From: Oxalobacteraceae bacterium
GTDB taxonomy: Bacteria > Pseudomonadota > Gammaproteobacteria > Burkholderiales > Burkholderiaceae_D
Assembly: GCA_027485795.1 (NCBI GenBank)
Contig: JAIXQK010000036.1
Coordinates: 1 to 40,113, forward strand
Direction of reading: 5' to 3'
DNA: 40,113 nucleotides
Part shown: piece after piece, positions 7,062-40,110 of the stretch
Layout: each line of letters begins with the position of its first letter
Position numbering within the stretch: position 1 is the first letter of the stretch
Made by a program: the position numbers and the translations under genes
The notes under the pieces: generated by a model
Told to the model about the DNA's origin: nothing
Databases searched by the model: none
The model's input: only the letters and a program-made list of their open reading frames with translations

Positions 7062-7080
7062 CAAAGGAGACTGAGCAACC

Positions 7081-8130: not shown

Positions 8131-8154
8131 TCCCATTTCATCTCAGGAAACCTC

Positions 8155-10135: not shown

Positions 10136-10137
10136 TC

Positions 10138-10629: not shown

Positions 10630-10637
10630 AAGCCCTT

Positions 10638-10949
10638 ATGAGTACAGCATGGATTGATATTGCAAGTAAAGCAGACGTCCCCGAGGAGGATGTGATAGGC
10701 ATAGACATCAACTCCAAAAGCATCGCGCTTTACCAAGTCGATGGCGAGATATTTGCTACCGATAATATCTGTAGTCATGGCAATGCGAGGCTCTGCGATG
10801 GCTTTTTGGAGGGACATGAAATCGAATGCCCGCTACACCAGGGAAAATTTGATATTCGCAATGGTAAAGCTATGTGCGCGCCCCTGACCGAGGATATTCG
10901 GACCTACCCCGTGAAAATCGAAGGTGATCGGGTCTTCATCGAGATATGA
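10638..10949 (+). CDS. nagAb: Rieske ferredoxin of salicylate 5-hydroxylase
   Basis: A 103-residue Rieske-type [2Fe-2S] ferredoxin. Ligands are visible as [11 protein letters not shown] (Cys-x-His) and CPLHQGKFD (Cys-x2-His), 17 residues apart. It carries electrons from NagAa to NagG. It starts 8 bp after nagH with no strong Shine-Dalgarno, so it probably relies on coupling. Presence of reductase, ferredoxin and both oxygenase subunits makes the enzyme complete here, without borrowing components from a naphthalene dioxygenase. Confidence 0.93.
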
Positions 10950-10980
10950 GCTTGTACGCTATTGAAAATTCGGAGCAGGC

Positions 10981-11646
10981 ATGAGCAAAGCTGACCAAGC
11001 AATCGTCCTACATAACTACTTTCGCAGCTCGGCAGCGTATCGCGTTCGCATTGCGCTAAATCTGAAGGGTCTGAGCTTTGATTATATTCCCGTTCATCTG
11101 ACGCGGGATGGTGGCGCACAGTTCTCGCCGAGCTATCGTGCGCTGAATCCGCAGCAACTAGTACCACTATTGGATGATGAAGGCTTTCAATTAAGTCAGT
11201 CACTCGCCATCATTGAATACCTGGATGAGAAATATCCCCAGACCCGTTTAATCCCCGAGTCTGTCGAGGGGCGAGCGCGTGTACGCCAAATTGCGCTTGC
11301 GATCGCCTGCGACATACATCCTCTGCAAAATCTTCGCGTCCTCAAATACCTCACTGGCCAATTGGGGCTATCCGAGGAAGCAAAAGCCGATTGGGTTAAA
11401 CATTGGCTACAACTCGGACTACAAGCATTGGAAGCGGATCTCGCGCGCGCTTCTAGCCGCGGTCGGTTCTGTTACGGGGATCAACCGACGCTAGCTGACT
11501 GTGTGCTGGTGCCGCAAATGTTTAGCGCCGCCCGCTTCGGTATCGATAGCACGGCATTTCCGACGCTACGCGCTATTTACGAACACTGCGAGGCCATGCC
11601 AGCATTTGCTGCCGCTCATCCAGCCAAGCAGGTAGACGCTGAATAA
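10981..11646 (+). CDS. nagL: Glutathione-dependent maleylpyruvate isomerase (GST zeta family)
   Basis: A 221-residue zeta-class glutathione transferase. The N-terminal thioredoxin-fold domain has NYFRSSAAYRVRIALNLKG, the SSxxxRVRIAL motif that binds glutathione in maleylacetoacetate/maleylpyruvate isomerases. The QLVPLLDD and QSLAIIEYLDEKYP elements complete it. The helical C-terminal domain includes CDIHPLQNLRVLKYL. It isomerises maleylpyruvate to fumarylpyruvate, the step between NagI and NagK. GGAG precedes the ATG, and 31 bp separate it from nagAb. It is the last enzyme gene of the operon. Confidence 0.92.
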   Translation: MSKADQAIVLHNYFRSSAAYRVRIALNLKGLSFDYIPVHLTRDGGAQFSPSYRALNPQQLVPLLDDEGFQLSQSLAIIEYLDEKYPQTRLIPESVEGRARVRQIALAIACDIHPLQNLRVLKYLTGQLGLSEEAKADWVKHWLQLGLQALEADLARASSRGRFCYGDQPTLADCVLVPQMFSAARFGIDSTAFPTLRAIYEHCEAMPAFAAAHPAKQVDAE

Positions 11647-13285: not shown

Positions 13286-14101
13286 TCAACTACCCAACAA
13301 GAAATTGGATAGCCGACCCGCCAGCTGGGAGGCTGGCGTCTCATCTTTAAGCTGTACGCCAGTGACGCCACGGCGTAATGCTTCACCAACAAGGTAACTC
13401 AGCTTGTTGGCGGCTTCCTGATAAGAGAGCCCGGCGGGCCGAATATTGGAAATGCAATTACGGCTCTCATCTGTAAGACCCACACGTGGACCCCAGGTCA
13501 TGTATAGCCCCATGCTGTCGGGTGAGCTAAGTCCAGGTCGCTCACCAATCAAAACCACCACCAGTTTTGCACCGAGCAGCTCACCGACCTCATCTCCAAC
13601 AGCAACTCGTCCCTGACGAACGATCGTGATTGGCGCCACACTGAACTTACCCTGCTCTAAAATCTCCAGTGCAGCTTGCAAGAAAGGAACGGCATTAGTC
13701 TCTACCGCTAGTGCTGACAAGCCATCAGCAATTACGAAAGCGAGATCATAGGAATCGACATTCATGTTTTGAGAAGCAAGCAACTGCAGTTGCTCCCGCG
13801 ACCCAGATGAAATCCTGCGGCCTAGATCAGGGCGCTGCAAGTAAGTAGCGCGATTGCCCGCCGAACTTTCAACCACCACACACTGTTCGACGACTTGCAG
13901 TTGCATTATCGCTTCCTGCAGTGCGCCCGTATTCAACTCGTGGTGTACAGCATCGCGCGCCCTTGCATGAGCGAGCTGAAACTCAAGCTGAGGGGTGGTG
14001 GGTAGGCTAATGCCAGTACGCCCAAGCGCAATACGCCCCGGTGTGAACTGCCTAAGCATGCCCCAAGGATTGGTGACGACGGTATCGCTTCGCTTAGTCA
14101 T
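13286..14101 (-). CDS. eutC: Ethanolamine ammonia-lyase, small subunit
   Basis: A 271-residue EutC, slightly shorter than the enterobacterial protein (about 295). Recognisable features are TPGRIALGRTG near the N-terminus, LEFQLAHARARDAVHHEL, VIADGLSALAV, and the GERPGLSSPDSMGLYMTWGP block with SRNCISNIRP, which helps bind adenosylcobalamin. With EutB it converts ethanolamine to acetaldehyde and ammonia. It is 26 bp downstream of eutB in the same operon. No eutA reactivase, shell-protein or eutE/eutG genes are in the window, so this is a non-microcompartment arrangement as far as can be seen. Confidence 0.95.
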   Translation of the reverse strand: MTKRSDTVVTNPWGMLRQFTPGRIALGRTGISLPTTPQLEFQLAHARARDAVHHELNTGALQEAIMQLQVVEQCVVVESSAGNRATYLQRPDLGRRISSGSREQLQLLASQNMNVDSYDLAFVIADGLSALAVETNAVPFLQAALEILEQGKFSVAPITIVRQGRVAVGDEVGELLGAKLVVVLIGERPGLSSPDSMGLYMTWGPRVGLTDESRNCISNIRPAGLSYQEAANKLSYLVGEALRRGVTGVQLKDETPASQLAGRLSNFLLGS

Positions 14102-14127
14102 AATGAAGTTGCCTCTGCAAGGGTCTT

Positions 14128-15519
14128 TCAGGCCAATCGTAGCAAAGCGTTGGCAAATGACGGAGGCAGGCCATCAGTGAGCTCGACTTTTTCGGTTTCT
14201 CGGAATATCGCCATCTTCTGGAGCCAACTCTCAAACTCCGGTGCTGGCTTGAGTCCGAGAACACGGCGAGCATAGAGCGCGTCATGAAATGAAGTGGTTT
14301 GGTAGTTGAGCATAATGTCGTCGGACCCAGGTACGCCCATAATGAAGTTACATCCCGCAGTAGCCAACAAGGTGAGGAGTACATCCATGTCGTTTTGGTC
14401 GGCCTCTGCGTGATTGGTATAGCAAACATCACAGCCCATGGGCAACCCAAGCAACTTACCGCAGAAATGATCCTCAAGTCCCGCTCGGACAATCTGCTTA
14501 CCGTCATAGAGATATTCTGGGCCAATAAAGCCCACCACCGTATTAATCAGTAGAGGCTTAAAGTGCCTTGCCACCGCATAGGCTCGTGCCTCGCAGGTTT
14601 GCTGATCCACACCATGGTGAGCATTGGCTGAAAGTGCACTTCCCTGGCCAGTCTCGAAATACATGACATTGTTACCGACAGTGCCGCGGCCAAGAGATAG
14701 CGCAGCCTCGCGCGCCTCACCTAATAAATCAAGGTCAATTCCAAAGCTGCGATTAGCAGCTTCGCTGCCGGCTATCGACTGAAATACCAAATCAACTGGT
14801 GCACCACGCTCGATAGCAGCAATCGTATTGGTGACATGTGTCAATACACAAGATTGTGTCGGTATTTCGTAATGGCGGATCACCTCATCCAGCATATGAA
14901 CGATCCGCATCACTTGCTGCACGTTGTCAGTCGCCGGATTGATACCGATCACTGCGTCACCCGCGCCATAAAGTAAACCGTCCACCATACTGGCAGCAAT
15001 ACCGATTGAGTCATCGGTTGGATGATTAGGTTGTAGGCGGGTAGCTAGTCGATTGGGCAAGCCAATCGTGTTCCGAAACCGGGTCACCACACGGCATTTC
15101 TTTGAAACGAGAATAAGGTCTTGTACCCGCATAATTTTCGAGACGGCCGCTACCATCTCTGGCGTAATGCCGGGCGCAAGTGCTGCCAGCGAACCCTCAT
15201 CTGCCTGATCAGACAGCAACCAATCCCGAAAGTCGCCGACCGTCATATGCTTGACCGGTGCGAATGCTTTCTGATCATGACTATCAATAATCAGGCGTGT
15301 AACTTCATCGCTTTCATAGGGGATGACCACTTCCTGCAAAAATGTAGCAAGCGGTAATGCAGCGAGCGTCATTTGAGCAGCTACACGCTCTTCAGCGCTG
15401 CCGGCCGCTACCCCCGCAAGATAGTCACCGGAGCGCGCAGGCGTAGCCTTCGCCATCAGGTCTTTCAGATCTCGGAAGGCGTAGGTACGTGCCCCAATGG
15501 TGTGCGAACAATAACTCAT
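14128..15519 (-). CDS. eutB: Ethanolamine ammonia-lyase, large subunit
   Basis: A 463-residue EutB of typical length and TIM-barrel type. Diagnostic stretches include LQPNHPTDDSIGIAASMVDG, GDAVIGINPATDN, PTQSCVLTHVTNTI, the substrate-binding FQSIAGSEAANRSFGI, MYFETGQGSALSANAHHG and MGCDVCYTNHAEADQNDM. It is the catalytic subunit where the adenosyl radical abstracts hydrogen from ethanolamine. The ATG is preceded by GGAG at 9 bp. It is divergent from a permease gene over a 276-bp AT-rich region with inverted repeats, which suggests the permease supplies its substrate. Confidence 0.97.
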   Translation of the reverse strand: MSYCSHTIGARTYAFRDLKDLMAKATPARSGDYLAGVAAGSAEERVAAQMTLAALPLATFLQEVVIPYESDEVTRLIIDSHDQKAFAPVKHMTVGDFRDWLLSDQADEGSLAALAPGITPEMVAAVSKIMRVQDLILVSKKCRVVTRFRNTIGLPNRLATRLQPNHPTDDSIGIAASMVDGLLYGAGDAVIGINPATDNVQQVMRIVHMLDEVIRHYEIPTQSCVLTHVTNTIAAIERGAPVDLVFQSIAGSEAANRSFGIDLDLLGEAREAALSLGRGTVGNNVMYFETGQGSALSANAHHGVDQQTCEARAYAVARHFKPLLINTVVGFIGPEYLYDGKQIVRAGLEDHFCGKLLGLPMGCDVCYTNHAEADQNDMDVLLTLLATAGCNFIMGVPGSDDIMLNYQTTSFHDALYARRVLGLKPAPEFESWLQKMAIFRETEKVELTDGLPPSFANALLRLA

Positions 15520-15672
15520 GATTTATTGCTCCAGCAAAAAGTGATCCCTCAGATTATGTAGGCAGCAGCTTCGCAAACATGAAGATCCTCTAAAAGAGAT
15601 TCATCAGGCGAGCACTCTGATACACGATTGAAATACGCTGTGCCAAAGTGGTGCAGTGCGCACGTATTTGGC

Positions 15673-15714
15673 GAATATTACAAGATATTCATCCGCAATT
15701 TACTGGCTTGTAAT
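15673..15714. promoter_or_regulatory. Nested inverted repeats between eutB and the permease
   Basis: ATTACAAG at 15677-15684 and CTTGTAAT at 15707-15714 form an exact 8-bp inverted repeat with a 22-bp spacer. GAATAT-TACAAG-ATATTC (15673-15690) is a second exact repeat overlapping the left arm. A related TTTTACAAA lies near 15757. The cluster sits mid-way between divergent genes and looks like an operator for one shared regulator. Confidence 0.4.
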
Positions 15715-15795
15715 TTGCTTTAAAGTCAATTACCCTTTGAACCTAGGTTTTCCAATTTTACAAACCTTTGCCAAAACATTTAATCAGGGACTCAT

Positions 15796-17268
15796 ATGGA
15801 ACAGCCTCCTAATCTGCAAGAAATGGACGACGCCGCCATCTTGAAAAAGATGGGCTATGAGCAAGAGCTGCATCGGCATATGAGTGCTTTTTCAAACTTC
15901 GCAATTTCGTTCTCGATTATTTGCATACTTGCTGGTGGCATCACGGCTTTCCCGCAAGCACTCGGCGCCGGTGGCGGCATCTCAATTGGCATTGGATGGC
16001 CGCTTGGAGCATTGTTCGCAGGCATCGTTGCACTATCCATGGCGCAGATCTCCTCGTCTTTTCCAACGGCGGGTGGCCTTTATCACTGGAGCTCGATTCT
16101 GGGTGGCCGCGCCTATGGCTGGATTACTGCCTGGTTCAATCTTCTGGGTCTGATTTTTGTGGTCGCCTCAGTGAACATGGGCGTTTACGATGTTTTTTTC
16201 AAAACCTCAATTGCGCCAATGCTTGGAATTGATTCGGCATCGCTTGGTTACGCTGAGCAAGTCGCCTTTCTGACGATAATGACGGCAGTTCAGGCAGTAC
16301 TCATTTTTCGGTTTGCAAGATTAACTACTTTGCTCACCGATTTTTCAGGATATCTAATTCTAGTGCTCTCGCTGGTTCTGACCGTATCACTTCTGATTTA
16401 TTCGCCGGTTCCACTAGATCTCAATAAGCTGGTCACGTTTACCAATTTCACGGGGAAAGAAGGCAGCCCATGGCCTGAGCACAGTGGGTTCCTGATGCCG
16501 TTTTTATCTGGCCTGTTATTGACCATCTACACCATTACTGGCTTTGATGCGTCAGCACACACCTCCGAGGAAACCCGAAACGCCGCTGCGGTTGTACCAC
16601 GCGGCATCATCACCTCAGTACTTTACTCAGGCATCTTTGGGTTCATCATGATTTGCACCTTTGTACTGGTGATGCCCGATTTAGAAGCCGGCGTCAAAAT
16701 GGGTATGGGGTACTTTGAAGCTTTGCTTTCCTCGTTGCCGGCAGGTTTGCGATCAGCATTATCAATCGGGATTTTCGTCGCAAACTTCCTTTGCGGACTG
16801 GCTTGCCTAACCTCCTGCTCTAGGATGATGTACGCGTTCGCTCGTGACGGTGGTCTACCCGCCTCGGACACCCTGCGCAAGGTGCACCCTACTCTGGGCA
16901 CACCAATCGCGGCCACCTTGGTGTCTGCTGTACTTGCCGTCGTCGTGACTTTGTATGGCGATGGCTTTGTCGTGTTGTCCACTGGATGCGCTGTTTTCCT
17001 TTACATCTCCTATGTCATGCCAACGGCTGCAGGCCTGCTGGCAGAAGGTAAGACCTGGACCCAAAAAGGTCCTTTCGACTTAGGGCGGCTATCCAAACCG
17101 ATGGCAGTGCTTGCGGTACTCGGTGGAGCGCTTCTGGTGTTTGTAGGCATGCAGCCACCCAACGAGAAGGTTTTGTACCTGACCATCGCTATGATTGTCG
17201 GGATGATCGCGTTCTGGTTTTTGTTTGGTGAATCAAAACGCTTCAAAGGCCCACCGAATATCCAGTAG
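15796..17268 (+). CDS. APC-superfamily amine/amino-acid permease
   Basis: A 490-residue permease with about 12 membrane segments. The N-terminus ILKKMGYEQELHRHMSAFSN, then FAISFSIICILAGGITAF, is the signature of the amino acid/choline transporter (ACT) family, which includes GABA and choline permeases. PTAGGLYHWSSILGG and GFDASAHTSEETRNA are further family motifs. Its position opposite eutBC suggests ethanolamine uptake, although characterised ethanolamine permeases belong to a different APC subfamily. The polyamine genes beyond it make GABA or another amine the main alternative. It converges with the aldehyde dehydrogenase gene; the 169-bp gap shows only a weak CTACCC/GGGTAG repeat. Confidence 0.85.
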   Translation: MEQPPNLQEMDDAAILKKMGYEQELHRHMSAFSNFAISFSIICILAGGITAFPQALGAGGGISIGIGWPLGALFAGIVALSMAQISSSFPTAGGLYHWSSILGGRAYGWITAWFNLLGLIFVVASVNMGVYDVFFKTSIAPMLGIDSASLGYAEQVAFLTIMTAVQAVLIFRFARLTTLLTDFSGYLILVLSLVLTVSLLIYSPVPLDLNKLVTFTNFTGKEGSPWPEHSGFLMPFLSGLLLTIYTITGFDASAHTSEETRNAAAVVPRGIITSVLYSGIFGFIMICTFVLVMPDLEAGVKMGMGYFEALLSSLPAGLRSALSIGIFVANFLCGLACLTSCSRMMYAFARDGGLPASDTLRKVHPTLGTPIAATLVSAVLAVVVTLYGDGFVVLSTGCAVFLYISYVMPTAAGLLAEGKTWTQKGPFDLGRLSKPMAVLAVLGGALLVFVGMQPPNEKVLYLTIAMIVGMIAFWFLFGESKRFKGPPNIQ

Positions 17269-27046: not shown

Positions 27047-27928
27047 CTACAGATCACGCGCCAATCGAAAACCCGTCTGATAGTTGCGCATATTCTCAAC
27101 CTCGGAATAGCGATAGGCAGATCGCGCGGTCGATGGGCCGTCCAGCCACGCTCCACCACGCACGACGCGCTTCTCACAAGCGCCTTCATGCTTGCGAACC
27201 GAGCCATCGGTTGGTGCACCGGCATAGCCAATGATGTGGCAATCGGCGACCCATTCACGGACATTACCGAGCATGTCGTGCAGGCCAAAGGCGTTGGGTT
27301 TGTACTTGCCAACCTCGATATTCTCGGCTGCGCCATCACTGCACAACACATGCGACCAGACATAATTCGGATGGGCCTGCTTGCCAACTTCATCATGTAA
27401 GTTGGCGTACTCGCATGTTTTGGTCTTGGCATCGTTGCCACCCCAGAACCAGGCGGTCTTCGTACCACCTCGTGCAGCATATTCAAACTCGGATTCAGAG
27501 ATCAGGCGATACGGCTTACCTGTCTTCGCGGCCAACCAGTCGGCATAGGCTTTCGCTTCCGGCCAGGCGATGTTCACCGCCGGGAACTTACCGCGACTGA
27601 AACCAGCATCATCCGCCTTGGGACATTTTCCATCGGCCACGCAAGCATCCCATTGCGCAAAAGTGGCCTCATATTTAGACACCGCAAAGGGACGCTCGAA
27701 CTTCACGGTGCGTTGCGGCTTTTCATCGACATGGCCGCTCTCGACTTTATCGGAGCCCTGTACGAACTCACCGGCGGGCAGAACCACCATCTCGGGACAA
27801 TAATCACAATCGGTAAACACACTACCCGGCGTTAGGCCTTCGGCCAGCGACGGTGCGCTCAGTGCTATGGCTGCGGAAAAGCCGACAACTGCGGCTGCAA
27901 GATTATGTTTGAATAGTAACTTCATCAT
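27047..27928 (-). CDS. Secreted SUMF1-fold protein, NirV-like
   Basis: A 293-residue protein with an N-terminal signal peptide (core AAAVVGFSAAIALSAPSLA) and one formylglycine-generating-enzyme (SUMF1) domain: MVVLPAGEFVQGS, FAVSKYEATFAQWDAC, FPAVNIAWPEAKAYADWLA, YRLISESEFEYAARGG, LHDMLGNVREWVADC and RVVRGGAWLDG. The C-terminus ends TGFRLARDL and lacks the cysteine pair (RxSxCxNxGFRCA type) of true formylglycine enzymes, so sulfatase activation is unlikely. NirV, encoded beside some nirK genes, has this fold. About seven cysteines in the mature chain suggest periplasmic disulfides. It is third in the NosR-like/ApbE operon, 65 bp after apbE. Confidence 0.85.
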   Translation of the reverse strand: MMKLLFKHNLAAAVVGFSAAIALSAPSLAEGLTPGSVFTDCDYCPEMVVLPAGEFVQGSDKVESGHVDEKPQRTVKFERPFAVSKYEATFAQWDACVADGKCPKADDAGFSRGKFPAVNIAWPEAKAYADWLAAKTGKPYRLISESEFEYAARGGTKTAWFWGGNDAKTKTCEYANLHDEVGKQAHPNYVWSHVLCSDGAAENIEVGKYKPNAFGLHDMLGNVREWVADCHIIGYAGAPTDGSVRKHEGACEKRVVRGGAWLDGPSTARSAYRYSEVENMRNYQTGFRLARDL

Positions 27929-27993
27929 TCAGTTTCACTTTCAGACAAAAACAAAAACAAGGTAACAATTCGCTACCCGCCATCACTCCCTGC

Positions 27994-29043
27994 TTATCCA
28001 TGATGTAGTAGCGATGAGGCACCCGCGCTCGTCGTCCACTTACCTGCCTTATCTTGCAGAACCACATCAACACCCCAACGCCGGCATTCGGCATCAATAC
28101 GCGAAGGCGGCAGCATGAAAAACACTTTGGTCAATGCATCAGCGTAGGCACAGCTGGACGCCAACACCGTCACGGAAGACCAGTGCTGCGGCGAGTACCC
28201 GGTGCGCGGATCAAGGATATGGTGATGACGACGATCTGTACTAAATACCGTATGGGCATCTGACGATGTCGCCATTGCGCGCCCATCGGTTTGCAGCACC
28301 GGGCCATGGCCAGCCCGCACCTGATCCGGCTTTCCAGGATTGGCAACAGCATCTTCAATCTTCAGCCGCCATGGCAATGCATTTGGTGCCTGACCCAAGA
28401 CACTGGTCTCACCACTATCAATCAGTGCGTGCCGAATACCCTGCTTACGTAGCGCCTCGCGCGCAATATCCGACGCATAGCCCTGAGCCACGCCATTTAG
28501 CGATAGCGCAGAACCCCGCGCGTTCAAACGTATCGATGTCGACGTTAGCTCCAGCGCGCGCAAGTTCACCAGACGCTGTGCATGCGCTACTTCTTTAGCT
28601 GATGGCAAACGTTGTGCTTCGGTCGCCTGCGACCATACCTGCCAGAGCGGTTGCATGCTGATGTCGAAGCTACCTGCACTTTGTTGACCAATATATTGAG
28701 AAAGCCTTAGTACCGAGAGCAGATCTCGGTCGGCATGCTCAAGCTTGCCCGATCGATTCAGACGACTAATCGCGCTGTCTGCATCAAACAGGCTCATTTG
28801 CCGCTCTACCTGTCGAATCGCTTTTACTGCAGCACTCAGCGCAGCTTCCAACTGGTCGGCATTTTCATGCGCGGCTTTTATCCACAGCGTGGTACCAAAA
28901 CCCAGCAGTGCGCGCTCGCGCCAAACCAGCTTGCCGGCAGACGCTGCGCGATCTGCCGCCCAAGCCTGTGCCAGTAAGCTATTCGACAGTCCAACACCCA
29001 GCAAACCCCAACCCCATACCAAACACTGACGTCGCTTCATCAT
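27994..29043 (-). CDS. apbE: FAD:protein FMN transferase (ApbE family, NosX/NirX-like)
   Basis: A 349-residue ApbE protein with a twin-arginine-like signal (MKRRQCLVWGW, then a hydrophobic stretch ending QAWA). Family motifs are SLNGVAQGYASDIA, HALIDSGETSVLG, HHILDPRTGYSP and CAYADALTKVFFML, whose acidic residues bind the metal. The usual GGD is SGE here; NosX/NirX members also carry a GE variant, as far as I remember. It transfers FMN from FAD onto a threonine of a periplasmic partner. The ATG overlaps the NosR-like stop codon, so the adjacent membrane protein is the obvious target. Confidence 0.9.
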   Translation of the reverse strand: MMKRRQCLVWGWGLLGVGLSNSLLAQAWAADRAASAGKLVWRERALLGFGTTLWIKAAHENADQLEAALSAAVKAIRQVERQMSLFDADSAISRLNRSGKLEHADRDLLSVLRLSQYIGQQSAGSFDISMQPLWQVWSQATEAQRLPSAKEVAHAQRLVNLRALELTSTSIRLNARGSALSLNGVAQGYASDIAREALRKQGIRHALIDSGETSVLGQAPNALPWRLKIEDAVANPGKPDQVRAGHGPVLQTDGRAMATSSDAHTVFSTDRRHHHILDPRTGYSPQHWSSVTVLASSCAYADALTKVFFMLPPSRIDAECRRWGVDVVLQDKAGKWTTSAGASSLLHHG

Positions 29044-31523
29044 GACTCCATCTTTAACTGCATTGGTATCACGCGATGTTCGCGTTTACGCTCTTGAATC
29101 AGTGGTAAACAGCGCTGATCATCCTGATAGATAGAGACGCAGTCAAGGCACTGAAAACACTCGCTATATTGAATCTGGCCAGAGGGCGCAATTGCTTGAT
29201 ATTCGCAGCGATGGCGGCATGACTGACAAGGGGTACCGCAAGCATCGCGCCGCGGTATCCAGGACCAACGTTGCAGAAAATTCACCGCGGCCAGCGCCGC
29301 ACCCAGCGGGCAAATATAGCGGCAGTAGCCCCGGTACAGGAATAACCCGAATGCCAGACAAATCACCGCCCACAGGATATACGGCCAGTCACGCACAAAA
29401 TGAAAACTAATTGCGGTCTCGAATGGCTCTACCTTGACGGCCATCTCCGAGAAGGATGGCGCAACAAAAATCGAGCCGATGATCGTCGCTAGCACGACGT
29501 ATTTAATGAGCTTAAGTCTGGCATCCAAGGCCGCGCGTAAACGCCGCTGATGCACGCCGATACGATTCGCAATCAGGCTGATTAATTCTTGCAGCGCTCC
29601 AAATGGACACAACCAGCCGCAGAAAGTCGCTCTGCCCCACACAAACAAAGTGACGCCGGTGAATAGCCATAAAATCACACTCATCGGATCGCTCAACAGA
29701 AAGCTCAAATCTCCCCCACCGCGCAGCGACTCGAGTGCAGCGGTGATATTGATGATGGTGAGTTGGCCCTGTGCGGTCCAGCCAATGAAGCCGAGTGTGA
29801 AGATTAAATACGCCACACGGAAAATCTGCAAACGGCGCGACGTGGCACTGGTGCGCTGCTGCCGGACCAAAGCGAAGGTCAGCACCGTTAACCCTGCCAC
29901 CAGCACTAACACCTCAATCCAACGATTCAACCAAATACGGATCCAGTCAATCGAGCTAAGGTCAGTATCCAGTGCATCATAAAACTGGGCACGCCAGCCG
30001 TAAAAATCATAAGCAATCGGAAATTCACGTTGCTCGACCTTATTCAGAATCTGATTGGTACCAAAGCGCCGACCTAATTTGAATGAAAGATCAATCGGTA
30101 GCTCGGGGTCGAGTGGCGTCGCCTTATCAATCACCAGAAAATACGCCTTAGTATTTTCTGGATAGCCGGGCATCTTGAGCCGCTTGTCGTACGGGATGAT
30201 GCTGAACTTGAGTGGCTTGCCGTTCTGACGCACTATGAACGGCGCGTCATCGGGTACACGCAGTGCATGGACGGTTTGCTCAGAGGGCACAGCGAGCGGC
30301 ATGTCGGCGACTTGATCGGCCAAACGTGGGTCGCCCGTACTACGCGCAGCAGGTATCTGGCGCGGCGCACCAGTGGCGAAATTCGTCAGCGGTCCGCTTT
30401 CGGTGATCAGTAGTGCCTGCGATTTACGACGGCTGGTATTGAGATAACGCCAGCCCTCACCATCAAGCAGATTGCGACCAATCGAGGGGATACCAAGCAA
30501 GGCGGTGTGCAGTACCAATGCCGGCTCGTTATCCGCCACGCCTTCCAGTTTGCCGCCGCCCGGTTCCTTGATATCACTGTATGCCTTGCGAATATCTGCC
30601 GGCGTAATGATTGTGGTTTGCACCATGCCGCGCCACAACAATTCATCCCAAGTCAGCGGTTGAAAGCTCTCGCGTGTACTGCGGCGGCGCGCGGCAGCAC
30701 TTGCCGCGATACTGGCATCTAGCTTAGCGACTGCCACTTTAGCCGCTGCGCCAAATATCGAACGATCAATTGCTTTGGTGGTGACGGTGCCGTGATTCAC
30801 ACCCTGTAAATCAGCCGATTGATCATCACGTCGTGTCTGTGAGCGGTAATCATGAATCCGAACCGTGTGCTGCAAAGTCAGATCGGTGTACTGTGCAGTG
30901 AATACGCCTAGGCGCTTGGTACCGGTTGGGTTATTAAAGAAAGGTTCTTTATGGTCGATCAGTCGCAGATCGATAAAAGCACCGGTCAAATCCATCGCCA
31001 CTAGTACATCAATCGGTTTACCGCTATAGCCACGTATCGGCTCGAAATCGAGCGACTCGAATGCGTAACCCTTCAATTCCGGCTTACCGCCGCTATCGCT
31101 GCCCTTGGCAAACAAGGGATAGACCGGCATATCGGCCTGCACCTCACCGACCATGAACTGTCCATCAAGCAGCTTGTCAATATCGTCGCGATTTAATAAG
31201 GCTGCCTGCGCGGGTTGCAGCGCGGCGAATAGAACTACGCCGAGGATGGCAATCGAAAGTAGTAGCTGCTTGATTAGCTCAAGCGCACGATAAGCAGCGT
31301 AGGGAAATACAGCTTGCAGGCTTCGGCGAAACAAAGCCGCCACCGACCTGTAAGGCCTAGCGAATAGGATGCGGGCAGTCATCGACGGCCACGCCGAGGC
31401 ATCAGCAACCAGCAATCTCCCCCCTACCGCCCTGCTAACGACGCCGTCTTGGTGGCGAATCGCCAGCGGACATCTATTTTTGTTTTTAATGCGAAAGCTG
31501 GCAATTTGCCAACTCGGCAACAC
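29040..31523 (-). CDS. NosR/NirI-like membrane iron-sulfur flavoprotein
   Basis: From the GTG at 31523, chosen for GGAGG 9 bp upstream, the protein is 827 residues; an ATG at 31382 (780 residues) has no ribosome site but gives a more usual N-terminus. A signal-anchor lies at about 84-107, then a periplasmic FMN-binding domain (about 108-530), five membrane segments (near 535-553, 568-584, 614-630, 672-690, 712-731) and a cytoplasmic ferredoxin domain. Cysteine motifs are FCGWLCPFG (635, 639), YCRYICPLG (734, 738), Cys762/766/769/773 and Cys789/792/795/805. NosR and NirI pass electrons across the membrane to support N2O or nitrite reduction. No nosZ, nirS or nirK is in the window. Confidence 0.88.
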   Translation of the reverse strand: MLPSWQIASFRIKNKNRCPLAIRHQDGVVSRAVGGRLLVADASAWPSMTARILFARPYRSVAALFRRSLQAVFPYAAYRALELIKQLLLSIAILGVVLFAALQPAQAALLNRDDIDKLLDGQFMVGEVQADMPVYPLFAKGSDSGGKPELKGYAFESLDFEPIRGYSGKPIDVLVAMDLTGAFIDLRLIDHKEPFFNNPTGTKRLGVFTAQYTDLTLQHTVRIHDYRSQTRRDDQSADLQGVNHGTVTTKAIDRSIFGAAAKVAVAKLDASIAASAAARRRSTRESFQPLTWDELLWRGMVQTTIITPADIRKAYSDIKEPGGGKLEGVADNEPALVLHTALLGIPSIGRNLLDGEGWRYLNTSRRKSQALLITESGPLTNFATGAPRQIPAARSTGDPRLADQVADMPLAVPSEQTVHALRVPDDAPFIVRQNGKPLKFSIIPYDKRLKMPGYPENTKAYFLVIDKATPLDPELPIDLSFKLGRRFGTNQILNKVEQREFPIAYDFYGWRAQFYDALDTDLSSIDWIRIWLNRWIEVLVLVAGLTVLTFALVRQQRTSATSRRLQIFRVAYLIFTLGFIGWTAQGQLTIINITAALESLRGGGDLSFLLSDPMSVILWLFTGVTLFVWGRATFCGWLCPFGALQELISLIANRIGVHQRRLRAALDARLKLIKYVVLATIIGSIFVAPSFSEMAVKVEPFETAISFHFVRDWPYILWAVICLAFGLFLYRGYCRYICPLGAALAAVNFLQRWSWIPRRDACGTPCQSCRHRCEYQAIAPSGQIQYSECFQCLDCVSIYQDDQRCLPLIQERKREHRVIPMQLKMES

Positions 31524-31774
31524 GTCCGAAGTACCTCCGGAACTATGACAACCGGAAACAAATTTATCACGAAGCCCTGAATCTGCAAACGTATTCAGAC
31601 TACGGACATAAGCGCAGGATTTTCAAAAAAGAAATAAGGTTTCGCATAAATGCCTGACGCGCGTACATTTGAATTCGTAATGAACTTGTCAGCTCGCACA
31701 ATTAGGCTAGGTTTTGGGTCGATCAAGGTGTCCCACGATCCAGCACTATTTAACTACTCATGGGAGCAAGCAAA

Positions 31775-32257
31775 ATGAAGAAGAATATTCTTGCAGCAGT
31801 TGCTGTGGCAGCCGTGATTGCCACGCCTTCCGTATTCGCCGCAGCTGGCGATACCGAGAGCGTATCAACCGGTCAGCTCAATCGTGTTGAAGTCAAGATA
31901 GGGGAAGATAGCTATTCGGTAGTGAACTTCAAATTGGTCATGGTGATCAATAAGTCTACGCATGAATTGTTCAAGGCCGGTGATGTGATTGCCCTTAGTT
32001 GTGTCGGCATCAACAATACCGTGAACAAAGAATCGAATGTCGATGGCAATTGCATAGCGAAAGATAGTGCAGGCGATACCTTCGCCACCACCTTTAAGCG
32101 CAAGGGCCTTTTGGGCCAGCCCGGTGCTGGTGCTCAGACGGTAAGAGGTTTGACAGGCAAATATGCTGGGATGACCGGCACTTGTAGCTACGATGCCAAA
32201 TACGCACAGAACGATGGTGTGTTCATCGCCTCGTTCGCAAAGTGCTCGTACAAGTAA
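31775..32257 (+). CDS. Small secreted protein of unknown function
   Basis: From the ATG at 31775 (GGGAG 8 bp upstream) the product is 160 residues; an ATG at 31760 is less well placed. It has a clear signal peptide, MKKNILAAVAVAAVIATPSVFA, with cleavage expected after the FA. The mature protein of about 138 residues holds four cysteines (in ALSCVG, GNCIAK, GTCSYD and the terminal KCSYK), enough for two disulfides, and is rich in Gly, Thr, Ser and Val, suggesting beta structure. I do not recognise the family. It is divergent from the NosR-like operon across about 250 bp and is followed by a GC-rich stem-loop. Confidence 0.75.
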   Translation: MKKNILAAVAVAAVIATPSVFAAAGDTESVSTGQLNRVEVKIGEDSYSVVNFKLVMVINKSTHELFKAGDVIALSCVGINNTVNKESNVDGNCIAKDSAGDTFATTFKRKGLLGQPGAGAQTVRGLTGKYAGMTGTCSYDAKYAQNDGVFIASFAKCSYK

Positions 32258-32401: not shown

Positions 32402-32422
32402 ACTTTACACGAAGGAGTGATA

Positions 32423-33061
32423 ATGGGATTGCATCTTGGTGATATCGCGCCAGACTTTGAGCAAGATTCATCGATCGGGCGGATCAAATTCCACGAATGG
32501 GCAGGCGATTCATGGGTCATTCTGTTTTCGCACCCCGCCGACTTCACCCCGGTGTGCACCACCGAGCTAGGCCTCACCGCGAAGCTGAAGCCAGAGTTTG
32601 ACAAACGTAATGTCAAGGCAGTCGCTCTGTCGGTCGATCCTGCTGACAAGCACCGTACCTGGATTTCGGATATCGAAGAAACCCAGCAGACCGTCGTTGG
32701 CTTCCCGATCATCGCGGATGCCGACCGCAAGGTGTCTACGCTGTATGACATGATCCATCCGAACCAGTCGGAGACCGCTACGGTTCGCTCCTTATTTGTC
32801 ATCGACCCGAAGAAAAAAATCAGGCTAACCATCACCTACCCGATGAGCACTGGCAGGAACTTCGATGAGGTGTTACGGGTAATCGATGCGCTGCAACTGA
32901 CCGACAGCTACACGGTAGCGACACCCGGCAACTGGAAAGATGGCGATGATGTGATCATCCCGCTCACCGTACAGGATGCGGACTTGATCAAGCAGAAATA
33001 TCCCAAGGGGTTCCGTGCACCGAAGCCTTATCTACGGATTACACCACAGCCGAACAAATAA
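32423..33061 (+). CDS. 1-Cys peroxiredoxin (Prx6 type)
   Basis: From the ATG at 32423, after GAAGGAG, the protein is 212 residues. The peroxidatic Cys45 lies in SHPADFTPVCTTELG. It is the only cysteine in the chain, so this is a 1-Cys enzyme that needs an outside thiol. The long C-terminal arm (from about GNWKDGDDVIIP to RAPKPYLRITPQ) is typical of the Prx6 class. It reduces H2O2 and organic hydroperoxides in the cytosol. It stands alone, with its own promoter and a strong terminator. Confidence 0.95.
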   Translation: MGLHLGDIAPDFEQDSSIGRIKFHEWAGDSWVILFSHPADFTPVCTTELGLTAKLKPEFDKRNVKAVALSVDPADKHRTWISDIEETQQTVVGFPIIADADRKVSTLYDMIHPNQSETATVRSLFVIDPKKKIRLTITYPMSTGRNFDEVLRVIDALQLTDSYTVATPGNWKDGDDVIIPLTVQDADLIKQKYPKGFRAPKPYLRITPQPNK

Positions 33062-34272: not shown

Positions 34273-35253
34273 TCACTTGGCCTGCCCGCCAATCTGATCT
34301 GCCTTGGCAAGTAGTGCTTCGGCCATGCGGATACTGGCGATGTCGATCATGCGGCCATCCAGACTGACGGCGCCCTTGCCGGCTTTGGCTGCCTCGTCCA
34401 TCGCTTGCATGATGCGTCGGGCGCGCGTGACTTCTGCCTCGGAAGGTGTGTAGACCTGATTCGCCAATTCGATCTGTGATGGGTGAATCGCCCACTTACC
34501 CTCGTAACCCAACACTGCAGCGCGATTCGCCGCCGCCAGATAACCATCTGTATCACTGAAATCACCAAACGGACCGTCAATCGGGCGCAGGCCGTAAGCA
34601 CGGCATGCCACCATCATGCGCGTTTGCGCTGCATGCCAGGGGTCGGTCCAGAAGTATTCGCGATTACCATCAGCGTCACGATCAGTCAGCACGCCAGAAT
34701 CTTTGTTGACGCCACCAATCACGGTCGTACGCGCACGTGTCGATGCAGCATAGTCAGCCACACCAAATGACATTGCTTCCAGACGTTTGCTGGATTGCGC
34801 GATAGCTTCGACATTGGCCATACCGAGTGCGGTCTCAATCAATACTTCAAAGCCAATGCGCTTGGTGCGGCCCATCGCGGTTTCAATTTGCGTCACCATC
34901 ATATCGATAGCATAGACATCAGCCGCAGTGCCAACCTTCGGAATCAGGATCATATCGAGGCGCGGACAGGCCTCGACGATATCAACAACGTCGCGATACA
35001 TGTAGTGCGTGTCCAGACCATTGATACGCACCATCATGGTCTTGCGACCCCAGTCGATGTCATTCAGACCTTGGATGATGTTCTTGCGGGCCTGCGCCTT
35101 GTCATCCGGCGCAACGGCATCTTCAACGTCGAGGAAAACAATATCTGCTGCTGAGTTGGCGGCTTTCTCGAACATGGCCGGATTCGAACCCGGCACCGCC
35201 AGTTCAGAGCGATGTAGCCGTGCAGTCGCCTGCTCAATAATGGTGAAACTCAT
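34273..35253 (-). CDS. mclA: L-malyl-CoA lyase (HpcH/HpaI-CitE family)
   Basis: A 326-residue CitE-type lyase. LHRSELAVPGSNPAMFEKA starts the barrel. FLDVEDAVAPDDKAQAR, Arg76 in MMVRINGL, Glu140 in FEVLIETALGM and Asp167 in MSFGVADYAA supply the CoA and Mg ligands, and WAIHPSQIELANQVYTP is the C-terminal family block. It splits (S)-malyl-CoA into acetyl-CoA and glyoxylate. Its place after mtkA, mtkB and ppc matches the serine-cycle cluster of Methylobacterium and fixes the function better than sequence alone. It is the last gene, 17 bp after ppc. Confidence 0.92.
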   Translation of the reverse strand: MSFTIIEQATARLHRSELAVPGSNPAMFEKAANSAADIVFLDVEDAVAPDDKAQARKNIIQGLNDIDWGRKTMMVRINGLDTHYMYRDVVDIVEACPRLDMILIPKVGTAADVYAIDMMVTQIETAMGRTKRIGFEVLIETALGMANVEAIAQSSKRLEAMSFGVADYAASTRARTTVIGGVNKDSGVLTDRDADGNREYFWTDPWHAAQTRMMVACRAYGLRPIDGPFGDFSDTDGYLAAANRAAVLGYEGKWAIHPSQIELANQVYTPSEAEVTRARRIMQAMDEAAKAGKGAVSLDGRMIDIASIRMAEALLAKADQIGGQAK

Positions 35254-35270: not shown

Positions 35271-38009
35271 TTATCCTGTCCAGCCGAGACCAGCTGCGGC
35301 GCAGTTGATTGAGGTCAGTAATGCCTCGCGTACTTCGCTGCCGCCCTGTCCTTCGCGCAGCTGACGCAATAGTTGCACCTGTTCGCGGCTGACATGATTC
35401 AGTGTCTCTAGCCGACGCGACAAGCGCCGCATGAATTGCGGGAAGCGCTCGCCGAGCACCGTCTCACCTGAAACGGATTTCAGCATCTCGGCCGTTAACT
35501 GATACTCGTGCACGATCTGTTGGAAAATTTCTTCGCGTGTGCTTTGCTCCGGAACTAGATTCGCATACTCGCGCGCGATGTCGAGATCAACTTGGCACAG
35601 CGCGCGCTCTACCTCATCCATTACGATTCGGAACAAGGGATATTCTTTAAACATACGCTGCAGCAGCTCGAGTCCGCGTTGCCCGCGCACATCGAGGAAA
35701 GCGCGGATTCCCGAACCTACGCCATACCAACTGGTCACCATGTGCCGGTTCTGAGTCCAGGCAAACACCCAGGGAATCGCGCGCAGGTCGGCCAGAGTCT
35801 GTGCCTGCGTACGACGTGCAGGACGCGAGCCGATGTTCAGCATGGATAGCTCTTCAAGCGGCGACGAGCCCTGAAGATAAGCCAGCATATCCGGGCGCTC
35901 CATCAACTTGCGATACGCCGTCCAGGAGGTACCCGATAAAGCCTCCATCGCCTCTTCATACTCATGCAGCGGTAGTTTCTCGGCCGCTTGCTGCGACAGC
36001 AGTACATGATTAAGCACTGAAGCGCCAAGCAATTCGGTTTGGAATAGCGCCGTGCCACGGTTGGCGTATTTGAGCGATACCACTTCACCCTGATCCGTCA
36101 GGCGGAACATGCCACGAATAGTGCCCGCGGGCGTCGCCTCGATCGCACGACTGGTCGGCACACCGCCACGGCTCACCGAGCCACCACGTCCATGGAAAAA
36201 ACTAATCGAGACACCAAACTCTTGACCGACACGCACCATCTGCCGCTGCGCTTTGGCTAATTCCCAATTCGCAGCGAAGTAGCCACCGTCTTTATTGGAG
36301 TCGGAGTAACCGACCATCACCTCTTGTACTTTGCGCTGGCGTGCCAAACTGCGCTGTACGACGGGGACGGAGAGTAATTCACGCAAAATCGTTGGTGCGC
36401 GACGCAGGTCAGGAATCGTTTCCAATAGCGGCACTACCGGTAGCGTGCAACCCTCCATACCAGCGCTATCTGTGAACAGACCCGCTTCTTTAGCTAATAA
36501 ATACACGCCAAGCACATCGGTGGCACTGTGGGTCATAGACAAGATCAAGGCACCAAATGCCTCGCGATCGATGGTCTGACGCAGCTCAGCAATCACACGG
36601 AAGGTGTTGAGGGTTTCGCGTGTCTCTGGAGACAAATCCGAATCTTTGCGTGCTACACCGCGTGGCGTCGACAACTCATTGAGAATCCAGCGTTTCCATT
36701 CCTCGGAATCAGATGCAGGCGCATCGGCACCTTGGCTGCGTCGATACAGCTCGGCGAGCGTCTGATTAATGCGTATCGTGTTCTCGCGAATATCGAGACG
36801 CACCGTAGAAAAACGGAATATCCCCACTTCGCGCAACAACGGCAGCAGCAACGAATCAGCAATACTCGCCACGCCCGCTTCACGCAACGCGGTATACATG
36901 AACTCAACATCGTGAATCAGCGCATCCGCCGACCGATAACCTGAGTCCGAGTCAGGTAGCTGGCGGTTGGCTGAGTCTTCCAGCGTCGTCATCAGCTTGA
37001 GTCGGATGTAACCCAGAAACTGACGGAAGATCTCGCCGGGGTTACGCTCTGCCAGATTACGTGCAGCAGGCATTCTGTCGAGACACTCGGTGACATAGCC
37101 CACAAAGGTCTTGGGAATGCTTAGCGAGCGCTCGGAAATACTCAGTACGCGAATGAGTGAAGAGACACGATCGATATAACGTCGCAAGACGGCTTCACGA
37201 GTTTCCCATAATGAGCGACGCGTGACTTCACTGGTGACATAGGGATTACCATCCCGATCACCACCGACCCATGAGCCAAAACTGATCAGTGCCGGTGTCT
37301 CAAGTTCATGCTCAGGAAAATGACGCCGAAACTCAGTTTCGATTTTTGCCATCACCTGTGGAACAACGTCGAACAAATTCTCCTGGAAAAAATACAAACT
37401 CCAGGCCACCTCCTGCTCGACGGTCGGCTTTTCGAGTTTTAGCTCGCCAGTCATCCATAGCAACTCGATCTCGGTACACATCGCTTGCTGCAATTGCTCT
37501 CGCTCACGGGGTGTCCAGTGGTTGGATTCCAGCTCGTGCAGCTTGAGATAAATACGGCGATAACACTCCAGTACCGTGACCCGCTTCGCCTCGGTGGGGT
37601 GTGCGGTAATGGTTGGCCGAATACGCAAGTCATCCAAAGCTTTTTGGACCTGCTCGGCCTTGATGCCCCGCTCACGCAACTGCTTGAAAGTATGCGCGAA
37701 CGTACCCGGCACATTATCAATACCGTGATCCGTCTCGATAAAACGACGATTCCGCATATCGCGATTTTGCTCTGCGATCGCCAGCAGTTGAAACCACATA
37801 CCCTGCGCACGAAGTGCTTTGCTGAGCAAGCCCGGGCTGATACCCGCGAATGATTGGCTCCCCTCAATCAAAGGAACTAGCTCCGGTTGCAGGCGCTGGA
37901 ATACAGCGAGGTACAACTCACGCAACAGAGTCGCGCGTGAGAAACCATCACTCGCCAGCGGTGACAACTCCACTGTTTCTGCGATGCCGGGGATCACCAT
38001 ATCATTCAC
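35271..38009 (-). CDS. ppc: Phosphoenolpyruvate carboxylase
   Basis: A 912-residue PEPC of usual bacterial length. Motifs in order: TAHPTEAKR (His137, catalytic), GSWVGGDRDGNPYV, GYSDSNKDGGYFAANWEL, FHGRGGSVSRGG (mobile loop with catalytic Arg) and NIGSRPARR. The C-terminus GLGWTG keeps the final Thr-Gly of the family. It adds bicarbonate to PEP to give oxaloacetate and phosphate. Two Met codons at positions 1 and 4 are possible starts. Clustering between malate thiokinase and malyl-CoA lyase ties it to the serine cycle rather than only to anaplerosis. Confidence 0.97.
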   Translation of the reverse strand: MNDMVIPGIAETVELSPLASDGFSRATLLRELYLAVFQRLQPELVPLIEGSQSFAGISPGLLSKALRAQGMWFQLLAIAEQNRDMRNRRFIETDHGIDNVPGTFAHTFKQLRERGIKAEQVQKALDDLRIRPTITAHPTEAKRVTVLECYRRIYLKLHELESNHWTPREREQLQQAMCTEIELLWMTGELKLEKPTVEQEVAWSLYFFQENLFDVVPQVMAKIETEFRRHFPEHELETPALISFGSWVGGDRDGNPYVTSEVTRRSLWETREAVLRRYIDRVSSLIRVLSISERSLSIPKTFVGYVTECLDRMPAARNLAERNPGEIFRQFLGYIRLKLMTTLEDSANRQLPDSDSGYRSADALIHDVEFMYTALREAGVASIADSLLLPLLREVGIFRFSTVRLDIRENTIRINQTLAELYRRSQGADAPASDSEEWKRWILNELSTPRGVARKDSDLSPETRETLNTFRVIAELRQTIDREAFGALILSMTHSATDVLGVYLLAKEAGLFTDSAGMEGCTLPVVPLLETIPDLRRAPTILRELLSVPVVQRSLARQRKVQEVMVGYSDSNKDGGYFAANWELAKAQRQMVRVGQEFGVSISFFHGRGGSVSRGGVPTSRAIEATPAGTIRGMFRLTDQGEVVSLKYANRGTALFQTELLGASVLNHVLLSQQAAEKLPLHEYEEAMEALSGTSWTAYRKLMERPDMLAYLQGSSPLEELSMLNIGSRPARRTQAQTLADLRAIPWVFAWTQNRHMVTSWYGVGSGIRAFLDVRGQRGLELLQRMFKEYPLFRIVMDEVERALCQVDLDIAREYANLVPEQSTREEIFQQIVHEYQLTAEMLKSVSGETVLGERFPQFMRRLSRRLETLNHVSREQVQLLRQLREGQGGSEVREALLTSINCAAAGLGWTG

Positions 38010-38020: not shown

Positions 38021-38914
38021 TTACTTACCGATAGTGGCAAGTGCTTTTTGGACCGTGATACCAAGCTCGGATGCACTCGGCGAGACGAACAATCCGTACG
38101 AAGCCATGATCTCGGACTTCTCGAGTGCGGTATCACCCTCACCCGAAATAATCGCACCGGCATGACCCATACGACGACCTTTCGGTGCTGTCAGACCAGC
38201 GACATAACCCACCACTGGCTTGGTCATGTTCTCTTTGACCCACTTAGCTGCTTCAGCCTCTTGCGGACCACCGATCTCACCGATCATCACCACGACCTCG
38301 GTTTCAGGGTCATCCTGGAAACGTGCCATGTGATCAAGGAACGAGCTACCGTTAATCGGGTCACCACCGATACCGACACTCGTCGTGACACCAATACCAA
38401 GTGCCTTCATCTGAGCTGCTGCTTCATAACCCAGTGTGCCGGAGCGCGAGACGATACCGACATTGCCGCGAATATAAATATGTCCCGGCATGATGCCGAG
38501 CATAGCTTTGCCTGCGCTGATAATGCCGGCGCAGTTGGGGCCGACAATAGTGGTGCGTTTTTCTTTTTGGTAGCGACGCAGGTAGCGCTTCACGCGCATC
38601 ATGTCTTGCGCAGGAATACCGTCGGTGATGATGCATACCAGATCGAGACCGGCATCTGCCGCTTCCATCAATGCATCCGCTGCATACGGCGGCGGCACAA
38701 AGGCCAAACTCGCCTGCGCACCCGTTGCTTTGACAGCCTCTTGTACAGTGTTGAATACCGGGCGCTCGAGGTGAATCTTGCCGCCTTTACCCGGTGTGAC
38801 ACCACCAACCACATTGGTGCCGTATTGAATCATCTCGTTGGCGTGAAAGGTGGCCTTGTCGCCAGTGAAGCCCTGTACGATAACGCGTGTTGTTTCGTCG
38901 ATCAAAATACTCAT
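38021..38914 (-). CDS. mtkB: Malate-CoA ligase (malate thiokinase), alpha subunit
   Basis: A 297-residue alpha subunit of the succinyl/malyl-CoA synthetase family. The CoA-binding Rossmann part has VQGFTGDKATFHANEM and GGVTPGKGG. The ligase part has VGPNCAGIIS, SRSGTLGYEAAAQMK, GIGGDPINGSSF, and GRRMGHAGAII with the phospho-histidine His251. ITDGIPAQDMMRVKRYLRRY matches MtkB as I recall it. It forms malyl-CoA from malate, ATP and CoA with MtkA. Neighbouring ppc and mclA favour malate over succinate as substrate. It is 26 bp after mtkA and 11 bp before ppc. Confidence 0.92.
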   Translation of the reverse strand: MSILIDETTRVIVQGFTGDKATFHANEMIQYGTNVVGGVTPGKGGKIHLERPVFNTVQEAVKATGAQASLAFVPPPYAADALMEAADAGLDLVCIITDGIPAQDMMRVKRYLRRYQKEKRTTIVGPNCAGIISAGKAMLGIMPGHIYIRGNVGIVSRSGTLGYEAAAQMKALGIGVTTSVGIGGDPINGSSFLDHMARFQDDPETEVVVMIGEIGGPQEAEAAKWVKENMTKPVVGYVAGLTAPKGRRMGHAGAIISGEGDTALEKSEIMASYGLFVSPSASELGITVQKALATIGK

Positions 38915-38940: not shown

Positions 38941-40110
38941 TCAGGTGACCTGCTCGCCGCGGGCGAGCTTGACCGATTTTTCACAGGCTTCCATCAGCGA
39001 ATCAGCAGTTACGATCGGTAAGCCGCATTCACGAATAATTTTCTGCCCCTCTTCTACATTGGTACCCGCCAAACGAACGACCAGCGGCACCCGTAAATCT
39101 TTAGCCGCTTGTACGACACCCTGCGCCACCCAATCACAACGATTAATACCGGCAAAAATATTTACCAAGATGCATTTCACGTTTTGATCAGTCAGCACCA
39201 GATTGAAGGCTGCAGCAACGCGTTCGGGTGAAGCACCACCACCCACGTCAAGGAAGTTAGCGGGCTCACCACCGCAATACTTGATGTTGTCCATAGTGGC
39301 CATGGCAAGACCAGCGCCATTGATGATGCAGCCGATATCGCCCTCAAGGCCAACATAGTTCAAACCAAATTCAGCGGCGCGCGCTTCGCGTGGATCTTCT
39401 TCGGCCGGGTCGCGCATCTCAGTCACCTGCGGGCGACGGAACAAAGCGTTATCGTCGAACGACATTTTTGCGTCGAGCGCAATCACTTGATCATCCTTGG
39501 TCACGACCAGCGGATTAATCTCCACCATAGTGGCGTCGAGATCACGAAACGCGCGATAGCAACCCAAGATAATCGTTACTGCTTGCGAGACTTGTTTCAG
39601 ATTCAACCCAAGACCAAACGCCAGCTGGCGTGCCTGAAACGGCTGCATACCGACCGCAGGCTCTACCTCCACCTGCAGAATGGATTCGGGTCTTTCCTTG
39701 GCGATCTCTTCGATCTCCATACCACCCTCGACCGAGGCGATCACACGGATACGCTCGATCTTGCGGTCCAGCACAAAGCCCAAATACAGCTCACGCTCAT
39801 ACGCAGTGGCCTTCTCCACATACAAACGATGCACCACCTTGCCCTCAGGCCCGGTTTGGTTGGTCACCAGCCTGGCGCCCAACATCGCTTGCGCGGCGGC
39901 CGCGACTTCGTGATAAGTGCGGCAGAGCTTCACGCCACCGGCTTTACCACGTCCGCCCGAATGAATCTGTGCCTTGATTGCCCAATGTGCCCCGCCCAAT
40001 TCGGTGGCGACATACACCGCCTGATCCGAGCTGTAAGCAACACCGCCCGGCGGCACGCTGACGCCAAAGCCTGACAGCAGCGATTTGGCCTGATACTCAT
40101 GAATGTCCAT
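38941..40110 (-). CDS. mtkA: Malate-CoA ligase (malate thiokinase), beta subunit
   Basis: A 389-residue ATP-grasp beta subunit, complete to its ATG at the window edge. [17 protein letters not shown] starts the ATP-grasp domain, and [20 protein letters not shown] holds the nucleotide-binding residues. [12 protein letters not shown] and [15 protein letters not shown] contain Mg ligands. [16 protein letters not shown] and [18 protein letters not shown] form the C-terminal domain that partners MtkB. It is probably the first of these four genes, or follows others outside the window; its promoter is not visible. Confidence 0.92.

Follow-up and report, generated by a model that had tools for sequence, protein, structure and literature searches.

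Among described systems, the closest to the locus treated here are the NapH-like flavinylated clusters, which Meheust et al. 2021 (PMC8238504) report in 172 genomes together with an ethanol oxidase (exaA), along with the proposal that electrons flow from the alcohol oxidase into the respiratory chain. Like them, a 40,113-nucleotide stretch (hereafter the window) from an Oxalobacteraceae bacterium (hereafter the host; GCA_027485795.1, contig JAIXQK010000036.1) encodes a NosR-like Fer4_5 membrane protein with an N-terminal domain that is probably of flavin mononucleotide (FMN) type, an adjacent ApbE (FAD:protein FMN transferase), and has relatives in clusters of pyrroloquinoline quinone (PQQ)-dependent alcohol dehydrogenases (PQQ-ADHs). 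Unlike them, the host pair is detached from the dehydrogenase, carries an altered target motif, has no FMN_bind match in Pfam, and stands beside serine-cycle-type genes; a PvdO-like protein of the SUMF1 fold is encoded after ApbE. We consider it reasonably likely that the NosR-like protein and ApbE form a NapH-like flavinylated electron-transfer pair serving periplasmic PQQ-ADHs encoded elsewhere in the genome. From gene content, phylogeny, conserved cofactor residues, synteny and co-occurrence we infer how flavinylation, partner, direction and coupling of electron flow, and SUMF1 role could fit together: ApbE would attach FMN to the NosR-like protein, at Thr246 in its periplasmic domain; the FMN would accept electrons from reduced PQQ-ADH, either directly or via cytochrome c; these would then reach the quinone pool by way of the membrane part with its CxxxCP motifs and 4Fe-4S sites, with the PvdO-like protein as a facultative periplasmic helper. 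Such a mechanism would amount to the proposal of Meheust et al. 2021 applied to a detached branch, the link to exaA being already published. What appears to be new, as judged from the alignments and trees, is a clade whose motif has changed at two nearly constant positions, whose acceptor threonine is kept, and whose ApbEs group together.

The placement of the NosR-like protein rests on two trees that agree with each other, a FastTree of 126 NosR-like proteins and an IQ-TREE of 63. Three NosR-like open reading frames (ORFs) shorter than 550 aa (L031, L073, L094) and loci L001-L007 were left out of the larger tree, and L040 and L225 share gene coordinates and scores, as do L068 and L235, each pair being apparently one contig. 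The window protein forms its own clade with a second NosR-like protein of the host, encoded on contig C2 without an ApbE (support 1.0 in FastTree, 100 in IQ-TREE), and in both trees this clade is nested among NosR-like proteins that have PQQ-ADH, pqq or pedF as neighbouring genes. Between it and the nos- and nir-linked proteins runs a branch with support 100; three PQQ-linked gammaproteobacterial proteins (L107, L109, L118) group on the nos/nir side of that branch. Since both trees place the protein outside those groups, it should be called neither NosR nor NirI: canonical NosR is ruled out by tree position, by a score of 438 bits against the NosR NCBIfam equivalog cut-off of 1000, and by the content of the 95% complete genome, searched with one NosZ model, and NirI by a position outside the nir-linked group together with genome content. 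The original prediction had spoken of a NosR/NirI-like protein and had named a place inside canonical NosR, with conserved nos linkage in close relatives, as counting against it; the label does not hold, and the protein does not fall there. With NosR and its ApbE/NosX the pair does share domain order, cysteine motifs and acceptor threonine; it differs in its separate clade, its score, its changed motif and the lack of any nosZ found. A PDB sequence search with the NosR-like protein matched no chain. Within the host genus a strong match was found in 21/21 searched genomes (weakest E 1.6e-136).

In three genomes of the host genus (G267, G264 and G257) a clade member and a PQQ-ADH share a strand and stand ~5-8 kb apart. 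The order in G267 and G264 is clade member, ApbE and then, 3.8-3.9 kb past ApbE and on the same strand, the PQQ-ADH, which is accompanied by a gene for a substrate-binding-type protein. There is no ApbE at the G257 locus, where the PQQ-ADH comes 8.1 kb beyond the NosR-like gene, and in G268 a C2-type gene (that is, of the type of the host paralogue on C2) lies ~33 kb from one. In the IQ-TREE the host C2 paralogue itself groups as sister to the genes of G267 and G264, with support 99. The host has one complete PQQ-ADH gene, on C178, and two contig-end pieces, on C65 and C44, which are respectively 82% and 85% identical to the G267 PQQ-ADH; PqqE is found over cut-off, with pqqB and pqqC adjoining it. 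Contig C65 repeats, as judged by eye, the run of small genes seen in G267, with an SDR gene in place of the NosR-like/ApbE pair. The simplest account of these arrangements is a putative move: the pair would once have belonged to a PQQ-ADH cluster, and the window copy has its place elsewhere today. A comparable association is annotated on plasmids of Variovorax, Aquabacterium, Methylorubrum, Sulfitobacter, Gemmobacter, Phaeobacter and Thioclava, where a 4Fe-4S protein gene is directly followed by one for an FAD:protein FMN transferase and the same stretches hold pqq, pedF or PQQ-ADH genes; in the displayed stretch of Azoarcus KH32C neither feature is annotated. Beside the C44 piece, a host protein (L167:1952-3136) joins a substrate-binding N-terminal part to a C-terminal CxxCH, and by eye it resembles a fusion of the cluster's periplasmic binding protein with a cytochrome c.

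The association extends to whole genomes. We compared 21 genomes of the genus with two sets of 20 family genomes, one drawn from the 39 that have a NosR-like match and the other from those that lack it, calling PQQ-ADH with TIGR03075 at E <= 1e-40 and judging absence of the NosR-like protein at E <= 1e-60. A PQQ-ADH was found in 20/21 genus genomes, in 19/20 matched family genomes and in 5/20 family genomes lacking the NosR-like match, i.e. in 39/41 genomes with the match vs 5/20 without (Fisher p 2.4e-8), or p 1.0e-5 for the family rows alone. The threshold admits PQQ-ADH matches below the family cut-off, since 44 of the 61 genomes match and 40 do so over it; E. coli, among the controls, matches TIGR03075 below that cut-off.

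Several observations weigh against this assignment. The window holds no PQQ-ADH, and none of the 15 clade members in the 126-protein tree has a PQQ label in its fetched flank (nor has any a nos or nir label, several flanks being short). A PQQ-ADH lies within 10 kb in only three of six C2-type loci examined (L034, L044, L256, L258, L259, L260). At E <= 1e-40 no PQQ-ADH is found in G250, which has clade members, or in G336, which has a NosR-like match. The co-occurring genomes are related, hence the rows of the Fisher tests are not independent. A cytochrome route exists, because the substrate-binding/cytochrome c fusion adjoins the C44 PQQ-ADH piece, and the clade's target motif departs from the published consensus at -6 and -1 from the acceptor.

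Could the pair instead serve another periplasmic redox enzyme - a di-haem oxidoreductase (DHOR), a molybdenum enzyme of the sulfite-oxidase type, or the SUMF1 protein - passing electrons outward as NosR does? We judge this unlikely. Six loci (L035, L037, L222, L223, L224, L228) do have a DHOR gene at up to ~10 kb from a clade member, and a window-type NosR-like gene of G267, without ApbE, is followed by one for a sulfite-oxidase-type molybdopterin oxidoreductase (L220:8730-12448). However, neighbours vary from locus to locus, and the seven host stretches examined, a small part of the genome, contain no DHOR. Nor does DHOR separate the two readings, because it also adjoins PQQ-ADH in L262-L266.

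In the NosR-like protein the Fer4_5 domain (PF12801) is recognised, membrane segments being placed by hydropathy only. As read by eye, all 40 aligned proteins keep the cysteines of both CxxxCP motifs and those of the C-terminal 4Fe-4S region, one NosR having a one-residue gap between two of them. The N-terminal domain is missed by Pfam FMN_bind, which has no match anywhere in the host genome. An AlphaFold2 model of residues 88-520 (mean pLDDT 85.1, pTM 0.56) matched five PDB entries at E <= 0.001. Each of these is an RnfG subunit matched in part, with low TM-scores of 0.30-0.51 over the target, a best E of 1.3e-4 and probability 1.00; NqrC also appeared, at E 0.024. These partial matches of the modelled domain are those that would be expected of an FMN-binding domain.

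The ApbE target motif is given as D-x-x-[S/T]-G-A-[S/T] in a review (PMC12052999). At the predicted acceptor position, Thr246, all 15 clade members have Thr, as do 110/111 proteins outside the clade (Ser in 1/111). The -6 position is Asp in 105/111 outside the clade and in none of the 15 within it, and the -1 position is Ala in 109/111 outside and Gly in 15/15 inside; in an overlapping set of 63 rows, lack of Asp at -6 and presence of Gly at -1 both hold for 21/21 clade members. The window protein carries an Asp at -8. On the side of the enzyme, 19 clade ApbEs occupy one side of a branch with support 94 (99 for 18 of them) and share Glu43, Trp54 and Met310 (19/19 each) and His264 (18/19), residues that are rare in the comparison set of 22 PQQ-linked and 6 nos-linked ApbEs. 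An altered target motif together with a separate ApbE group fits co-evolution of enzyme and target, without proving it.

The same changes could be read as a loss of flavinylation, the protein working by its iron-sulfur part alone or being in decay, and here the missing Asp and the Gly at -1 in every clade member are joined by signs of erosion: in G250 (L218:706-4917) an internal stop codon breaks the window-type NosR-like frame, SUMF1 being interrupted as well, and in G254 a SUMF1 remnant is left. Still, we regard such a loss as improbable. The acceptor Thr and the cysteines are retained, an adjoining ApbE is kept and groups with its own kind, and a strong NosR-like match is present in all 21 genus genomes searched; in G250 itself the C2-type paralogue is open throughout, despite the broken window-type frame. 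Moreover, according to the review (PMC12052999), another protein was little affected when its motif Asp was replaced by Ala.

The preferred partner, PQQ-ADH, is encoded in the host genome, and the window ApbE is the single copy detected there. The genome is a draft of 3.24 Mb in 183 contigs, 95.4% complete, in which NosZ gave no match (TIGR04246, a single NosZ model), NirK gave none over cut-off (one weak match lies inside a 514-aa frame), and nirS was not found, the Cytochrom_D1 match over the Pfam cut-off (29.9 bits; 52.5 with a neighbour) lying in a 314-aa YVTN beta-propeller protein. That the pair assists a nitrous-oxide or nitrite reductase encoded in the ~5% missing from the draft, as its 438-bit resemblance to NosR might suggest, is very improbable given trees that put it outside NosR and NirI and the lack of a NosZ match with the one model, of NirK over cut-off and of any Cytochrom_D1 match other than the propeller. 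Within the window, Pfam scans of 34 ORFs likewise found no cytochrome c, cupredoxin, copper chaperone or denitrification reductase, as the original prediction had noted; its search targets nosZ, nirS and nirK stayed without a find genome-wide, and no nos or nirK/S cluster lacking its own NosR/NosX came to light. Its suggestion of an orphan accessory unit survives in part: the set does look like a redox unit detached from its enzyme, with PQQ-ADH, which it had not named, as the likeliest partner.

A bolder version can be put forward only tentatively, and we lean against it: the branch, along with a transferase of its own, would have re-coded the site at which flavin is attached, giving the D-x-D PQQ-ADHs of serine-cycle bacteria a flavin/iron-sulfur route to quinone beside cytochrome c, with the PvdO-like protein as a periplasmic maturation or oxidation helper. 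D-x-D, which we take to be the lanthanide-type signature, is present in both host PQQ-ADH sequences that cover the site (C178 and C44). Regardless of that version, the clade offers a compact test case, with one detected ApbE, two target paralogues, no Pfam FMN_bind and a two-position motif change. Should the proteins prove to be flavinylated, ApbE targets escape surveys built on the motif or on Pfam; should their electrons come from PQQ dehydrogenases, alcohol oxidation has a second exit besides cytochrome c. In the literature, NapH/NosR-like flavinylated proteins beside alcohol oxidases have been noted from genomes, and in the parts of the sources consulted we found no reported test of the link. 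The words NosR, flavin, 4Fe-4S and FMN do not occur in the main text of a 2026 review of the ped cluster (PMC12997753), no open-licence paper was recognised from its title or the start of its abstract as treating this NosR-like branch, and nothing was found in the open-licence literature on the serine cycle plus methanol dehydrogenase in freshwater Oxalobacteraceae.

The third gene belongs to the locus more loosely. Its product has PvdO (dihydropyoverdine dehydrogenase, PDB 5hha) as best solved relative (E 2.2e-44), with similarity over residues 23-293, a leader-like N-terminus and a shared N-terminal cysteine stretch; it differs in scoring 203 bits against the PvdO equivalog cut-off of 500 and in a window where Pfam scans recognised no pyoverdine genes. 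A formylglycine-generating enzyme (FGE) is ruled out, as the two active-site cysteines of an FGE are replaced in the alignment to such an enzyme (6muj). The earlier NirV-like label also finds no support, judged by genome content and neighbours rather than against a NirV reference sequence: the best solved relative is PvdO, the genome has no NirK over cut-off, and no nirK is annotated near five plasmid relatives.

The arrangement of three consecutive genes with overlapping or close spacing holds in the window, where the NosR-like ORF and apbE overlap by 4 bp, a 65-bp gap separates apbE from the SUMF1 gene, and the Pfam families are as described. As an operon conserved across the family it is rejected, the SUMF1 gene being facultative: it lies near the window-type gene in 7/14 genus loci, several of the other seven being short contigs. 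SUMF1 directly follows ApbE, intact, in the host, G268 and G258, broken in G250, and as a ~50-residue remnant in G254; in G259 its position is upstream, in the same orientation, and a DHOR gene comes after it, and in G256 it lies, along with a DHOR gene, on the opposite strand and 4.8 kb away. In a first neighbourhood scan SUMF1 matches were confined to the window and to L001, a locus cut out of it, and homologues in other genera have mixed neighbours (L128-L137). Distant SUMF1 proteins (33-37% identical) are divergent to PQQ-ADH in 6/18 non-host PQQ-ADH stretches of the genus (L257, L262, L263, L264, L265, L267), and L266, a PQQ-ADH locus of similar type, has none. The SUMF1 family thus recurs around this chemistry in the genus, yet the window gene is a facultative neighbour. 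In a single genome from another genus, G070 (L170), SUMF1 is convergent with a PQQ-ADH cluster, which we do not use as support. A DHOR gene directly adjoins a close SUMF1 homologue in L223:3186-5495 and L228:1406-3579.

The features are collected in Table 1, in which the names mcl, ppc, mtkA and mtkB and the serine-cycle pathway are our own assignment (the mtk names by gene order). The true start of the NosR-like protein probably lies later than the 827-aa reading implies, because an in-frame stop precedes the conserved part of the gene in G254 and G250, and a hydrophobic stretch occupies residues 79-111 of that reading. Terminator-like hairpins in the region are not above chance (5 found vs 8.1 expected).

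Table 1. Coordinates of the NosR-like locus and its neighbours in the window
Feature	Positions	Strand	Basis or remark
NosR-like membrane iron-sulfur flavoprotein ORF	29040-31523	minus	longest reading 827 aa; Fer4_5 61.7 bits (Pfam), trees
ApbE (FAD:protein FMN transferase)	27994-29043	minus	Pfam ApbE 210 bits
PvdO-like SUMF1-fold protein, N-terminal leader-like stretch	27047-27928	minus	Pfam FGE-sulfatase 161 bits
Fer4_5 stretch, residues 613-656 of NosR-like protein, including first CxxxCP motif	29556-29687	minus	
Flavinylation-site region, residues 238-248, predicted FMN acceptor Thr246	30780-30812	minus	alignments
Weak terminator-like hairpin between apbE and SUMF1 gene	27960-27978	minus	
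mcl-like lyase (HpcH_HpaI/CitE type)	34273-35253	minus	presumed serine-cycle context; also neighbour in relatives
Phosphoenolpyruvate carboxylase (ppc)	35271-38009	minus	Pfam
Coenzyme A (CoA)-ligase subunit, mtkB-like	38021-38914	minus	Pfam
CoA-ligase ATP-grasp subunit, mtkA-like	38941-40110	minus	Pfam
Secreted 165-aa protein, no known family, divergent to NosR-like gene	31760-32257	plus	also in G254
1-Cys-type peroxiredoxin	32417-33061	plus	also in G254 and G268

The serine-cycle-type genes recur beside the clade. G250 and G258 carry mtkA, mtkB, ppc, mcl, the NosR-like gene, apbE and SUMF1 in that order on one strand. As far as their contigs reach, G268 and G254 hold parts of it, mcl and the NosR-like gene being separated there by one for a peroxiredoxin. 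For another paralogue type, an mcl-like gene is convergent with and adjoins the NosR-like gene in L234, L235 and L072, and is absent from six other loci of that type (L037, L229-L233). This linkage, positional as it is, fits a role in one-carbon (C1)/methanol or other short-alcohol metabolism. Elsewhere in the window, positions 6066-11646 hold a Rieske ring-hydroxylating dioxygenase set with reductase, cupin, FAA-hydrolase and GST genes, presumably resembling a salicylate/gentisate pathway, and positions 13286-17268 encode the ethanolamine ammonia-lyase subunits EutB and EutC together with an amino-acid permease.

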